64,000 nt of DNA from NCBI GenBank assembly GCA_016192995.1, contig JACPTB010000007.1, positions 1-64,000 of the forward strand, read 5' to 3'. Positions 17,437-35,954 of this stretch are shown here, piece after piece (position 1 is the first letter of the stretch; each line of letters starts with the position of its first letter). Under the pieces are notes generated by a model. That model saw only the letters and a program-made list of their open reading frames with translations. It was not told the origin of the DNA and did no database searches. Source of the stretch: Candidatus Woesearchaeota archaeon. GTDB taxonomy: Archaea; Nanobdellota; Nanobdellia; Woesearchaeales; DSVV01. Position numbers and translations under genes: made by a program.

Positions 17437-18102
17437 TCAGATTAGTTTTTCATCAGAAAATAACAGCAAATGCCCTAACTTATGTTTTTTAGCTGAATAT
17501 TCTTCTTTGAGGTTATCATGTATCGGCTCTTCTATATTTTCTAAGATAACAATAAAACCATGTTCTTCAAAAAATTTCTTTCGTTGAGGACTATTACTCA
17601 ATAATCGTATATTTTTAATGTTATAATGATGCAAAATAGAAATAACATCAGTATAATCACGATAATCTTCTTTAAAACCTAATGAAGTATAGGCGTCAAC
17701 AACAAGCTCACACCCTCTTTTTTGCCCTTCAGTATAAACTTTCCAATGATTTTCTATCCCTACTCCTTTTCCATGATGGTCATGACAAAAAATAATAATG
17801 CCTTTTCCTTCTTGAACAATTTTCAATTTAGCCATTTCAAGTTGCCAACGGCAATCACAATATTGATTATCGAAGTAAAACGACCACTGGCAATTTGATG
17901 AAATTCTGACAAGAATATCGGATGAACTAAAAGAATTACTATCGCCATAAAGTAATACACCATAATGTTGGTCGTTAAAACGAAAACCATAATGCATGAA
18001 ATGAACGATAGTTCCATTTAGTAACTTCAAGGGTAATTGTACTGAACCAATTACAGAATAATGACCCTCATCTTTAACAACATCCATTAATATCACATCC
18101 AA
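17437..18102 (-). CDS. Divergent GTP cyclohydrolase II (RibA-like) protein
   Basis: A 221-aa protein clearly in the GTP cyclohydrolase II family. It has LLYGD (51-54 region), zinc ligands C71, C82 and C84 (C-x10-C-x-C), LGFKEDYRDY, IRLLSNSPQR (165-174) and the C-terminal KHKLGHLL. GCH II opens the imidazole ring of GTP to start riboflavin synthesis. Here the active-site loop normally reading RQEGRGIGL is CHDHHGKGVGI, with substitutions and one extra residue, so the reaction may differ. No other riboflavin gene is present. It is the last gene of a TrmB-linked operon and overlaps the upstream gene by 10 nt. Confidence 0.8.
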   Translation of the reverse strand: MDVILMDVVKDEGHYSVIGSVQLPLKLLNGTIVHFMHYGFRFNDQHYGVLLYGDSNSFSSSDILVRISSNCQWSFYFDNQYCDCRWQLEMAKLKIVQEGKGIIIFCHDHHGKGVGIENHWKVYTEGQKRGCELVVDAYTSLGFKEDYRDYTDVISILHHYNIKNIRLLSNSPQRKKFFEEHGFIVILENIEEPIHDNLKEEYSAKKHKLGHLLLFSDEKLI

Positions 18103-20098
18103 GGTTTAAACTGATTAAACGGATTATACAATTCCAGCAAATATTCTTTTTTCTTTTGCTCGTCAATGGGTATATGCCAAAAACTATTGTCTTTCAAAGC
18201 CTTTTCTTTAACTGAATTTTTTAAGACATCAGAAGGTTTCCAATCCATCCCTGCAAGTTCAAATAGTTTTTTATGGCCATAGCATCTGATCTCAAGAGCT
18301 TTTTGCTTCAACGTTTCAAAATCAAGTGATTTCAAATACTGCCATGACTCAACAGCTGCATCAGCATAAACAGAACAAGCAGATTGAATTTCATCAACTG
18401 TGAGAAATTTGCCATCAGCTTCAACAGCATAATAAGCTAATCCGTTGGTAACATCACCTTCATAATGACTGTGACATGAAATTAAATCATTAGTATATTT
18501 GACGTCTTTGTAAACACAATACATAGTTATGTTATGATAAGGATATTTTTCAGTATGAGGAAATAGTTCTATTGGTTTCAGATTCCAGAATTTCTTAATA
18601 ACAAGAATACGGCCATCTCCGAACTGTTCTGAAACATCATAAAGTCCTTCATTTTCTGTAACAAAATCTAAATAATAATCCATAGTCATGGCTGGTCCAT
18701 AATTATAAAGCGCGTTATAGAGTTTTCCTAATAATTTTGCATCTTGAGGAATTCCCTTAGTTAATGACAACGATGACAATAGAGAAGTAACCTCAGTTTT
18801 TGCTCTAACTATATTGGATTTGAACCCAAAAATATCCTCTTTTGCTTTTTGTTTGCAAATATGCCATCTGAAATCCAATATTTTTCTGGTATCATGATCC
18901 GACAAAGCAGCCAACTTTAGATCTAATAACTCAAAACCTAAATGAACACGATTGCAGCCAAGAAAATCAACAGCGTCAGCTATTTGTTCCTTACTAATAT
19001 TGTTTTTTTCAAGATTGCTAATCAACTCCAATAACAACCCTGTCCATTCCTTTGCGCATAAAGGATGAAACTGATACCAATCAAATGGCTGCAACGTGCC
19101 AATATCCATATTTTTACCGAAGGAAACATAGAGTGATTGAATAAATTGCCCTAAATGAATTTTTTGAAATATCTGATGAATACTTTCAATAGTTAACTGT
19201 TCAATTACCTTTTTATCAGCAATATAATTATGTTTTAAAAACAAGCTACCGACACTATCCAAGACAATAGTCATCAACGGGCAGCACATTTTATTTTCAA
19301 AATATTGCGCTTCCTCGCTTAATTGGATGCTGATGGGAACAATCAATCGCAAACCAAGAAATTCATTAAGCAATTCAGGTCTTTGCTGATAAAGCGATGA
19401 ACCATATAATTTCTCAAGAACTTCATTATCCAGAGGAGAACTGAAAAATAACTTTGGTTCCCGATAAAAAATAATTGGTTTAATTTTAGAATAAGTAATA
19501 CTCCTATCTAAAATCCCTGCTTCACCTAACGCATTGTGCTTAATGGCTTCCTTAGTAATTTCTGCTTGTAAAAATTCACAAAAATACGTATTTGCCAATG
19601 ATTTGTGAAAAAATGATACTGATAAAAATCAATAAAAATATTAATAATAGTTTCAAAATTTTGTTCTATTTGAATTTGGTCTTCAGAGTAAGCTGTTGCT
19701 TCAAGCTGTTTAAGCAAGCAAATCAATGCTTTCATCGTTTGCGCTTTATGAGACGCCAAAACAAGATATTTTTCAGGATGTGTTATGAAAAAATCCATCA
19801 ATTTTTGACTGCTAAGATCTTCATGCATCCAATACCTTCCTTTCTGATCAAAGAAAAAAGGAAGTTCTTTGCCATAAATCAATAAAGATTCTTGTTTAAA
19901 ACATCGCGTGTAAATATCAAGATTCAATCGAGGAAAGAAATATTTTGGACGTTCGCAAATATAATTAACATGATCAATAGTAAGATGATAAACTTCATTG
20001 CTTTTTGAAGCTGGACGCGCTTGAGTATAAGTAATAGTGATAATAGATTCATCAACCTCTTTTCGAGGAATAGCAATAACATCATAAAATGCCTTCAT
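18093..20098 (-). CDS. Large unknown protein of the swivel-domain operon, split by a frameshift
   Basis: Two frames, 20098 to about 19610 and about 19610 to 18093, appear to be one gene of about 668 codons. The second frame has no ATG near its beginning. The reading shifts at an A6 run (19608-19613 on the plus strand), where one inserted or deleted base would join ...FYQYHF to ...ANTYFCEFLQAEITKEAIK. The N-terminal 80 residues look beta-rich (VIAIPRKEVDESIITITY) and the rest mostly helical, with no membrane segment. I recognise no domain. Its place between two phosphohistidine-domain genes and the RibA-like gene suggests it binds the substrate of the pathway. That is inference. Confidence 0.6.
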
Positions 20099-20403
20099 AA
20101 CGATCTAACCTCTTCATTGGCTGCATCAAGTTCAACAAGTTGACTTTCAGGCACATCATCTAAACCATGAACACTAACTAAACAAGGAATATTAAACTCA
20201 CGTGATAAAATAGAAGCATGACAAGTTAAGCCGCCATGTGTAGAAAGCAAACCACCGGCGTTGCGCAATAGAAAAACACCTTGAGTTAACCATTGGTTTA
20301 GAACAACAATATCATCCTTAGTATAAGTTACTCCTTCTCGATAAAATTTAATCCTGCCTTTAACAAGACCAGGGCAAACACAAAGACCAGTAAGTATGTT
20401 CAT
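20095..20403 (-). CDS. Stand-alone phosphohistidine swivel domain (PEP-utiliser mobile domain), copy 2
   Basis: A 102-aa protein made only of the mobile domain that carries phospho-His in PEP synthase and pyruvate phosphate dikinase. The signature GGLTCHASILSREFNIPCLV places the phospho-acceptor at His62. The ATG at 20403 follows GGTGGTT; upstream in-frame ATGs exist. It shares an ATGA overlap with the next gene. No ATP-grasp or PEP-binding TIM-barrel domain is fused to it, so the phosphoryl donor and acceptor enzymes must be separate proteins. Confidence 0.8.
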   Translation of the reverse strand: MNILTGLCVCPGLVKGRIKFYREGVTYTKDDIVVLNQWLTQGVFLLRNAGGLLSTHGGLTCHASILSREFNIPCLVSVHGLDDVPESQLVELDAANEEVRSL

Positions 20404-20432
20404 AGCAACCACCATAATAAAATAAATAATAA

Positions 20433-20780
20433 TCAACGTTCTAACAAATGTATTTCTCCTTTTTCTCCACAAATCTGGATAAGATCATTGTGTTGGATAA
20501 TCTCTGTTACTTGTTTGCCAGTCTCAACACATTTTGCTGAAACAATACATGGTATCCCCATTTCACGACTAACAATTGAAGGATGTGATGTTAGTCCGCC
20601 AATATTGCAGACAATACCAGCAGCTTTGTTCATTAAAGGAACCATGGTTGGATCAGTAAGATGCGTAACTAAAATCATCCCTTCGACAAATTTTGAAAAA
20701 TCAGAAGGTTGCTGAATAACGCAGGCTCTACCTTGAACCCTGCCTTTACTAACACCTAACCCTAAACCTATTTGTTTCAT
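20433..20780 (-). CDS. Stand-alone phosphohistidine swivel domain, copy 1
   Basis: A 115-aa protein closely matching the PEP synthase mobile domain. It has LTDPTMVPLMNKAAGIVCN followed by GGLTSHPSIVSREMGIPCIV with His66 as the phospho-acceptor. It differs enough from the neighbouring copy (20095-20403) that they are old paralogues and not a recent duplication. The 5' end overlaps the HD-domain gene by 32 nt, indicating coupled expression. Confidence 0.83.
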   Translation of the reverse strand: MKQIGLGLGVSKGRVQGRACVIQQPSDFSKFVEGMILVTHLTDPTMVPLMNKAAGIVCNIGGLTSHPSIVSREMGIPCIVSAKCVETGKQVTEIIQHNDLIQICGEKGEIHLLER

Positions 20781-21891
20781 TATGATAATCTCCCTGATTG
20801 ATCGCGTCTCTCAACGATTGATGTCTTTGATAAAGTTCATCAAGTTTTGAAGATAATCTTTGTTTTAGTTCTTGTCTTTGTTCTACTAATCCTAAAACAT
20901 TAGGAAAATTAACAAACGGTATCATAAAGCTTGGACTCTGTAAACTTCGTTCTCCTCGTTGCCTGCATGCTAAATCTTCAACCATAAAATCATACACAGG
21001 CGTTCCTTTAACAGAAGCTATAAAACCTGGAGCTTTTTTCTCAACCATTTTTTCCATATAAAGAATATCAGTTTTAGCTCCTCGTTGCTTCCAACCTTCT
21101 TCTGGTTCAGTATACGTTAATAATTTTTTAACACCTTGTGCAACAACTTGAGCATTTATTTTACCAGCATCATAAAGTGGTAATCTATCGCCAACTAACA
21201 TACAAGCTTCTGCAAACCCTCTCACAGGATTATTGCCATCATGATACCATAAACCATCAAGAACTTTATGCAACATTGGTATTGAAACTGCGGAAACTGC
21301 TAATTGTCGTTGTTCTTCAAGTGGTAATGCTGAAACAACAGCAATACCTAAATCTCTTCTATCACTTAATCCAACTTTTCCTAAAAGCGCTCTGCCGAAA
21401 ACATCGTCTTCAACAGCTCCTTTATTATAAAGAACTCCATCTAAAAATGCTGTTTTTTGCGCTTCAGATTTAACAAGCTCAGCCAATCCAACTCTCAGAG
21501 CTTGATCTTCAAAAACAGTTGGCTTAAACGCTAAAGCTATATCATGAAAAACTCCAGCGAGAAATGCATCTTCTGGATCCAAAGGAAAATAGTTATTTGC
21601 TTGTCTTATAGGTGTATTAAACTCCTGTAATTTTTCTGCCAATTCAGCAGCACTTTTTCCAACATCAAAACAATGTAACACTTCATGCATACTATAAGGA
21701 TTACCATGTTGTTGAAGTAAATCCAAAAGACCGTACAAAACACGCGGATCAGAATATTTTCTTGTCATTGCTTCTAATTCAGAAGGTGAATAAAACTCAC
21801 CTCGATCCCATCCTAATTCATGTGCTAAACCTAACCTTCGTAATTGTTGAATAAAACCGTCATTAACTTTTGCTTTCGTAACTTCATCCAT
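20749..21891 (-). CDS. HD-domain protein, probable phosphohydrolase
   Basis: First gene of the operon, 380 aa, cytosolic. An HD-type metal site is suggested by VLHCFDVGKSA (His73) and GVFHDIALAF (His116-Asp117) in a helical region. HD proteins hydrolyse phosphate bonds of nucleotides and similar compounds. The C-terminal half has no recognised domain and ends in a coiled, charged segment (LVEQRQELKQRLSSKLDELYQRHQSL). Its ATG lies downstream of a TATA-like sequence and a palindrome shared with the divergent regulator gene. Confidence 0.65.
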   Translation of the reverse strand: MDEVTKAKVNDGFIQQLRRLGLAHELGWDRGEFYSPSELEAMTRKYSDPRVLYGLLDLLQQHGNPYSMHEVLHCFDVGKSAAELAEKLQEFNTPIRQANNYFPLDPEDAFLAGVFHDIALAFKPTVFEDQALRVGLAELVKSEAQKTAFLDGVLYNKGAVEDDVFGRALLGKVGLSDRRDLGIAVVSALPLEEQRQLAVSAVSIPMLHKVLDGLWYHDGNNPVRGFAEACMLVGDRLPLYDAGKINAQVVAQGVKKLLTYTEPEEGWKQRGAKTDILYMEKMVEKKAPGFIASVKGTPVYDFMVEDLACRQRGERSLQSPSFMIPFVNFPNVLGLVEQRQELKQRLSSKLDELYQRHQSLRDAINQGDYHNETNRFRVRC

Positions 21892-21955: not shown

Positions 21956-21977
21956 AGTTGTCGAAAAAACGACAACT
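21956..21977. promoter_or_regulatory. Palindromic operator between divergent promoters
   Basis: AGTTGTCG-AAAAAA-CGACAACT forms perfect 8-bp arms around an A6 spacer. It lies between two TATA-like sequences, TTATTTAAATA (about 21944-21954, serving the minus-strand operon) and TAATATTTAAATA (about 21983-21995, serving the regulator gene). The position fits binding by the TrmB-family regulator encoded at 22019. Confidence 0.6.
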
Positions 21978-22018: not shown

Positions 22019-23143
22019 ATGAATAAAGAATTAGTGCTGCAGGAGCTTGGTTTATCAGAAGGTGAAATTAAAACCTACCTTAGTTTATTAAAGCGAGGAT
22101 TTTCTACCGTCGCCAAAATCAAGGAAGACTCCGGCCTTCATAGGACAACAGTCTACGATTTCTTAGAAAAACTGATGCAAAAAGGGTTAGTCAGTTATGT
22201 AGTCCAAGGTGGAGTAAATTATTACAAGGCAAGTCCTCCTGAACGATTAAAACAACTGCTCAAAGAAAAAGAAGACAAATTAAAAACAATCATGCCTGAG
22301 CTTGAAAGTCTTGCAAAATTGCCGAAAGATGAGATCAAAGTAGAGGTCTACAAAGGAAAGCAGGGTTTTAACACAGTCTTAAACAAAATTATTGCCGTTA
22401 GAAAAGACATGTATGGTTTCGGTTTTGAAGAAGAAAAATATGAGCAGATGGATAAAATAATGATGGAGCAATATTTTAGAAAATGCAATGAAAATAATAT
22501 TAAAGAAAACGTTTTCGTTAAAAGAAGCACCTCATTCCTCTACAAACACCCTCATATTAGATATCATTTCCTACCAGATGATTATTTTAACCCAAATCCT
22601 TCTATGACCTTCGGCAATTACGTTGCTATTCAAGTGTGGGAGCCGCTGACAACTATTTTGATTGAAAACAAAGCATTAGCTGATTCCTATAAGAAATATT
22701 TCAATTTCTTAAAAGACCAATCGTCAATGATTTTTCGCGGCTGGAATGAAGTAAAGAAGATATTTGATGAAAGTTTGGAACTGATGAAAGCAGGAGATGA
22801 AATTCTTACTTACGGAACATCGCAAGATGCAGACAATTACGTTGATTATTTTAGAGAGCATAACATCATAGGAATTAAGAAGAACATTAAAGCACGAATT
22901 ATGATTGATCAACGTGCAAAGAAAAACATTGCGATGTGCAAAGCAACAGGGTGGCAGGTATGCAGTTTAAAGCCTGGCCAAGGAACAGCAATGGAAGTAG
23001 ATATTTATGGCAAATGCGCATTTATGGTGATTTGGAAGAAAGATCCAAGGCAAGTAACAGCAATCCTCTTTAATGACCCTGAGATTGTAAAAAGCTTAAA
23101 GCAATACGGTGAAATGCTCTGGAAATCAGCAAAACCCATGTAG
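22019..23143 (+). CDS. TrmB-family transcriptional regulator
   Basis: A 374-aa regulator with an N-terminal winged helix-turn-helix of the TrmB type (LGLSEGEIKTYLSLLKRG...HRTTVYDFLEKLMQKGLV, residues 10-62). A coiled linker follows, then a sensor region with two similar halves (MYGFGFEEEKYEQM and EILTYGTSQDADNYV) as in TrmB-like C-terminal domains. TrmB proteins sense sugars or other small molecules. It is divergent from the HD/swivel/RibA-like operon and probably controls it through the palindrome at 21956. The start is near-leaderless. Confidence 0.85.
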   Translation: MNKELVLQELGLSEGEIKTYLSLLKRGFSTVAKIKEDSGLHRTTVYDFLEKLMQKGLVSYVVQGGVNYYKASPPERLKQLLKEKEDKLKTIMPELESLAKLPKDEIKVEVYKGKQGFNTVLNKIIAVRKDMYGFGFEEEKYEQMDKIMMEQYFRKCNENNIKENVFVKRSTSFLYKHPHIRYHFLPDDYFNPNPSMTFGNYVAIQVWEPLTTILIENKALADSYKKYFNFLKDQSSMIFRGWNEVKKIFDESLELMKAGDEILTYGTSQDADNYVDYFREHNIIGIKKNIKARIMIDQRAKKNIAMCKATGWQVCSLKPGQGTAMEVDIYGKCAFMVIWKKDPRQVTAILFNDPEIVKSLKQYGEMLWKSAKPM

Positions 23144-35542: not shown

Positions 35543-35684
35543 ACGGAGAAAATCCCTAATCAAAATCATAAAAAATACTCTTGATTTGAAACATGGAGTT
35601 TACGTAATAATATTTACAAACTAGCCTCTGATAAAATGTTTTAGAAGTTATAATGTTCAAATCCAATGTATTCTAGAAAAAAAG

Positions 35685-35954
35685 TGCAGGCCGCAAGGAA
35701 TGGACAGAGCAATCCAAGACAAGTTTGTCTTGAACTTTTCTCGACCCTGCTACCTTGCAAGCACCATTACTCCTGCTTAATGCTGCTTCCGTCAGGACCT
35801 GACATGGTTCACAAGAATAACAATCCTCCAAGACAAGATGTCATAGTACAGCTCAAGGCTTATCTTGAATAAACTTGCCGCTTCCTTGCTTCAGTTGACC
35901 CTAAAGCTCGTTTGGCCTAACAGGTGAGAGCTAACCACCCAACCTAGCCTGCAA
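35685..35954 (-). ncRNA. ffs: SRP RNA (7S RNA)
   Basis: The reverse complement carries the conserved S-domain sequence GUGAACC...GUCAGG...CUGACGGAAGCAGC (around 35790-35815) and the archaeal 5' domain GGCUAGG...GGGUGG...CACCUGU (around 35905-35947). The 5' end (TGCAGGC, 35947-35953) pairs with the 3' end (GCCTGCA, 35685-35691) as helix 1. The RNA is followed by a U7 run. A TATA box (TTTATAAA, about 35974-35983) lies about 25 bp upstream. The length of about 270 nt is slightly short for archaea. It forms the signal recognition particle with SRP19 and SRP54. Confidence 0.93.

Follow-up and report, generated by a model that had tools for sequence, protein, structure and literature searches.

The two-component dikinases HpeHI, CreHI and PpsAB (phenylphosphate synthase) each combine a separate PPDK-type ATP-grasp protein with an acceptor component that bears the phosphohistidine swivel domain (PMC12167813). 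Only a few two-component dikinases, all of them catabolic enzymes, have been assigned a function. In the rifampin phosphotransferase RPH (5hv1, 5fbs), the ATP-grasp, the acceptor domain and the swivel are all contained in one polypeptide (PMC4844700). Our search of the literature yielded no description of the system analyzed here and nothing relevant beyond HpeHI and RPH.

The locus in question is an operon in a 64,000-nucleotide stretch (hereafter, the window) of the genome of a Candidatus Woesearchaeota archaeon (contig JACPTB010000007.1). Similarly to HpeHI, CreHI and PpsAB, the system includes a separate PPDK-type ATP-grasp, a free 312-aa PPDK_N protein, and a histidine phosphocarrier, but the swivels of the window are not fused to an acceptor (a fusion confined to relatives, for example, L026 and L028), there are three or more components, the putative acceptors BigN and BigC are not clearly related to the known ones, and a single ATP-grasp seems to be shared by many swivels. 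The ATP-grasp and swivel domains are homologous to those of PEP synthase and PPDK, whereas no PEP/pyruvate barrel is recognized here. The closest connection to RPH is through proteins encoded in swivel gene arrays, which match both the acceptor and the swivel domains of RPH, in contrast to BigC, for which no relationship with the RPH-like acceptor domain could be detected. There is also an analogy, and only an analogy, to the PTS, in that a hub would charge several carriers; the donor, however, would be an ATP-grasp here, as opposed to PEP and enzyme I in the PTS.

As originally predicted, the genes of the operon share one strand, where they overlap or are tightly spaced, and a gene for a TrmB-family regulator (22019..23143, forward strand; PF01978, E 6e-18) is oriented divergently from them. 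The first gene of the operon encodes an HD-domain protein and is followed by genes for two stand-alone swivels, a large gene and a RibA-like gene, all on the reverse strand. The prediction of two free swivels with an intact motif histidine holds as well. The first, SwA (20433..20780, reverse strand; 115 aa; PF00391, E 3e-21), contains His66 in the motif GGLTSHPSI, and the second, SwB (20095..20472, reverse strand; 125-aa ORF; PF00391, E 1.6e-13), contains His85 in GGLTCHASI, with the ATG at 20415 or 20403 being probably the real start. The motif histidine is kept in all matches checked, 13 for SwA and 13 for SwB (overlapping sets).

The large gene, previously described as a single 668-codon ORF, turned out to be two overlapping ORFs in different frames that align to consecutive stretches of intact relatives, in which the frame is open over 706 and 698 codons. 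The 5' part (19526..20098, reverse strand) is a 190-aa ORF that corresponds to the N-terminal half of the BigN module and shows 41-43% identity to residues 1-159 of the intact relatives; its final ~25 aa are frameshifted, the frame being lost at ~19600. The 3' part (18093..19598, reverse strand; 501 aa; 38-39% identity to the intact 698-706-codon frames) comprises the C-terminal half of BigN (residues 1-143) and the BigC module (residues ~149-499). Alignment to L017 and L018 indicates that the junction lacks ~22 residues (~61 nt net), a gap that may be due to a mutation or to an assembly fault. The large protein consists of two modules, BigN and BigC, of which BigC also recurs alone.

The ATP-grasp or PEP-binding fold that was to be looked for in the large protein was not recovered. 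No ATP-grasp domain was detected by Pfam in the window ORFs of the large gene, and an AlphaFold2 model of the intact large protein from L089 (mean pLDDT 90) had no match at E <= 0.001 in the PDB or viral fold libraries, with neither an ATP-grasp nor a PEP/pyruvate TIM barrel recognized in the fold search. Entries for RPH recur in the PDB fold list for this protein, at non-significant E values of 1.1-5.4. Among profile searches against the PDB, that with BigC produced nothing and that with BigN produced chance-level EVH1 matches only. Direct profile comparison with the RPH-like acceptor domain of the array proteins revealed a weak, partial similarity for BigN (hhalign probability 33-72, depending on the set-up) and no relation for BigC.

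Of 145 related genomes searched, 12, one of them the genome of the window, encode the large protein or a part of it. The genes for the HD protein, SwA, SwB and the large protein occur in the same order, rather than dispersed, in other Woesearchaeota (L017/L090 and L018/L089), next to genes for TrmB, which is again divergent, and NAD kinase. Elsewhere, the architecture varies: L023 encodes BigN and BigC separately, and a swivel is fused to BigN in L026 and to BigC in L028 (a PNP_UDP_1 phosphorylase family gene, L028:7966-9060, lies downstream of the latter fusion). The partner of SwA is BigC: throughout the main BigC family, SwA adjoins BigC, is fused to it or is encoded in the same operon wherever the contig is long enough. 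SwB goes with BigN and the HD protein, as seen from their linkage in L023/L093, L026, L030, L068, L089 and L090. A scan of contigs detected BigC in records whose titles name Woesearchaeota, Nanoarchaeota, Micrarchaeota and Diapherotrites as well as in three Patescibacteria/CPR bacteria, and the SwA-BigC pair is also found in Micrarchaeota, in Diapherotrites and among CPR bacteria. In two Micrarchaeota genomes (L097, L099), a CLC chloride channel gene is located upstream of this pair. A divergent group of BigC (L058-L062) lacks SwA; in L058-L061, BigC is solitary, with no adjacent swivel, and L061 has an acceptor+swivel gene ~3 kb away. The operon is a real, conserved unit with its own regulator.

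The statement in the original prediction that no ATP-grasp is encoded nearby is correct locally, for the operon genes tested, but is misleading with respect to the genome. The window genome yields 20 matches to PF00391 and two to PF01326 (PPDK_N). One of the latter is a complete 801-aa PEP synthase (L083, G000:C2), and the other is the free 312-aa ATP-grasp (G000:C5:65668-66558; PPDK_N, E 1e-102), which sits within an array of acceptor+swivel genes far from the operon. This array (L079, G000:C5:63870-75075) contains one free ATP-grasp and has HAD and hexapeptide-transferase genes alongside. In other genomes, the ATP-grasp is physically linked to BigC and a swivel: two copies of BigC, one of SwA and a free ATP-grasp are encoded consecutively in a Micrarchaeota MAG (L103), the only case in which a free ATP-grasp was seen to adjoin BigC or SwA, and BigC, ATP-grasp and swivel are combined in a single polypeptide in L063 (detected by Pfam) and L064 (by eye and HMM). 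Because of this linkage and the homology of the components, we tentatively connect the operon with the ATP-grasp on C5.

On balance, we favor the possibility that the operon encodes the acceptor side of a small-molecule dikinase with multiple components, a modular variant of the two-component design of HpeHI and PpsAB. This reading is supported by the linkage of the ATP-grasp to BigC and a swivel in L103 and L063/L064, by the acceptor+swivel arrays around a free ATP-grasp and their match to RPH (see below), by the two-component precedents, by the conserved TrmB and palindrome, and by the phosphatase genes found at these loci. Against it, BigC is not detectably related to the RPH-like acceptor domain and BigN only weakly and partially so, the large protein has no significant fold match, the ATP-grasp is distant in the window genome, the large gene of the window is interrupted, and the incomplete genomes G022 and G083 show no obvious free ATP-grasp hub. 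The precedents of RPH (PMC4844700) and HpeHI (PMC12167813) are the reason why we infer a path from ATP-grasp to swivel histidine to an acceptor-bound small molecule. The free ATP-grasp would phosphorylate the histidines of SwA and SwB, converting ATP to AMP, Pi and the swivel phosphohistidine; the charged swivels would dock on BigC and BigN, where a bound small molecule would receive the phosphoryl group. The passage of phosphate through the swivels, as originally proposed, is supported as a reading of the sequences. The HD protein would strip phosphate from the product or from a related phosphoester and so provide the reverse arm of a switchable on/off pair, and the divergent TrmB might repress transcription in both directions through a palindrome, with a ligand, perhaps a sugar by analogy, relieving the repression.

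The HD protein (20749..21891, reverse strand; 380 aa) matches PF01966 with an E value of 9e-5, which is weak but above the family cut-off. Residues E70, H73, H116-D117, D162 and D212 are invariant in six sequences, from the window and five other loci, and include the H...HD...D metal ligands of HD phosphohydrolases (H73, H116-D117, D212). This protein is likely to be a metal-dependent phosphohydrolase, as judged from its motifs; its structural model is poor (pLDDT 66), and a fold search with that model was uninformative. The role of phosphate remover previously assigned to it appears plausible, since phosphatases of other folds adjoin the same genes elsewhere. The HD gene adjoins SwA-BigC in the window (Pfam) and in L089, L090 and L093 (profile of the HD family described here); a HAD gene does so in L096 and L097 (Pfam) and, marginally, L092; and a histidine phosphatase in L104 and an LMW-PTP in L026 (both Pfam) are found in this position as well. 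Additional HAD-like (L019, L020, L100) and RHG-type (L098, L105) genes were identified from motifs by eye, with no Pfam match where tested. Altogether, phosphatases of four folds adjoin SwA-BigC or share the same palindrome. When 71 near and 93 far genes were compared, HAD was present in 3 near and 0 far among the 25 families listed, so that the enrichment of phosphatases near SwA-BigC is suggestive, given a small comparison and motifs partly recognized by eye.

A full-length counterpart of the TrmB-family regulator, 41-43% identical, is encoded beside the operon in relatives. The candidate operator is the palindrome TTGTCGAAAAAACGACAA (21958..21975), located between the start codons of the TrmB and HD genes. 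Its core, TGTCG-N6-CGACA, has a single exact match in the 1.6-Mb window genome, and nine other loci carry it next to the operon. In two further genomes, the same core lies between a TrmB homolog and a free SwA (L139) or between a TrmB homolog and an LMW-PTP-like gene that precedes a swivel gene (L137). Because a 10-base pattern is expected about once per genome by chance, the palindrome is informative only by its position beside TrmB; indeed, G058 contains an identical core with neither a TrmB nor a swivel neighbor, and the use of the palindrome as a genome-wide regulon signal was rejected in view of the same chance frequency. Regulators of the TrmB type often respond to sugars, hence our guess, by analogy, of a sugar-like substrate.

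The dedicated TrmB and the recurrence of phosphatases are also compatible with a signaling phosphorelay, in which the swivels would phosphorylate proteins rather than a small molecule and the phosphatase would reset the signal. In addition, a receiver domain adjoins the divergent BigC in L062 and a receiver-like gene, identified by eye, follows BigC in L092. Nevertheless, receiver genes are limited to these two loci, the one in L092 being without a Pfam match, and the related array proteins match an acceptor domain of small-molecule dikinases, so that we consider a phosphorelay unlikely.

The dikinase reading of the operon leads to a broader scheme, to which we subscribe more tentatively and at somewhat less than even chances, namely a genome-wide network that distributes phosphoryl groups in DPANN archaea. 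Within it, a single free ATP-grasp would charge many interchangeable swivels, either fused to acceptor domains or free, each of them paired with a dedicated acceptor and, in many cases, a dedicated phosphatase, in a functional, ATP-driven analog of the PTS, and the operon of the window would be a spoke with free swivels under local TrmB control. In related genomes, matches to the swivel greatly outnumber those to the ATP-grasp (37 versus 3 in G096, 27 versus 3 in G036 and 26 versus 5 in G003, where ATP-grasp matches can be split pieces), and tandem acceptor+swivel arrays surround one free ATP-grasp in G074, G117, G143 and G096. A match to RPH extending from the drug-binding domain through the swivel (5hv1, E 5e-33) was obtained with a profile built from 28 array proteins. 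Against a hub, G022 has 9 swivels and no PPDK_N, and G083 has 21 swivels and one PPDK_N, in a full-length frame, with no obvious free hub, although both genomes are incomplete. If the scheme is correct, and one hub charges 10-37 swivel domains per genome of 1-2 Mb, these poorly understood, probably host-dependent archaea would devote a large share of their coding capacity to uncharacterized phosphotransfer chemistry, and the free swivels would offer a simple test of phosphohistidine carriers shared in trans.

The swivel arrays are also found near genes for Pta, hexapeptide transferase, methyltransferase and PLP proteins; phosphate acetyl/butyryltransferase-like genes, in particular, lie inside the arrays in L106, L109 and L112, with PTA_PTB confirmed by Pfam for L106. 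In the prodigiosin ligase PigC, phosphoryl transfer activates a substrate for condensation, and such neighbors, together with the resemblance of SwA to the PigC/RedH swivel, would fit a PigC-like ligase or biosynthetic pathway. We assign this alternative a slightly lower, small probability considering that neither the window operon nor its direct relatives showed these partner genes and that similarity to the PigC/RedH swivel is common to the whole superfamily.

The last gene of the operon (17437..18102, reverse strand; PF00925, E 1.6e-27) encodes a RibA-like protein of the GTP cyclohydrolase II family. In an alignment with 2bz0 and 4i14, the protein retains the zinc cysteines, as described earlier, together with the RDY arginine, and its substrate loop, correctly described as altered, reads HHGKG where EGRG is conserved. 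Its score of 104.9 bits is far under the TIGR00505 equivalog cut-off of 205.85. The retained cysteines and the overlap of this gene with the large gene speak for the original proposal of a RibA-like enzyme that opens or binds a guanine-type nucleotide, with phosphate moving via the swivels. The gene, however, is missing from the equivalent place in L017, L018 and other BigC loci and is a local addition outside the conserved unit; it was the sole basis for guanine-nucleotide chemistry, and there is another RibA-like copy elsewhere in the window genome (G000:C1:305130-305657). The relatives suggest that the operon can function without the RibA-like gene. A guanine-nucleotide pathway is not supported, and we regard this chemistry as highly improbable. 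Just as improbable is a dead locus or a decayed PEP synthase, for which the interrupted large gene could be adduced, since the other genes are intact, the palindrome is conserved, the relatives are intact, and a PEP synthase remnant was rejected, there being no recognized PEP-synthase fold in the large protein and a complete PEP synthase elsewhere in the genome.

An anti-phage defense system was also considered and rejected, as none of the operon proteins had a match among the PADLOC models. Outside the operon, the window encodes an archaeal SRP RNA at 35684-35954.
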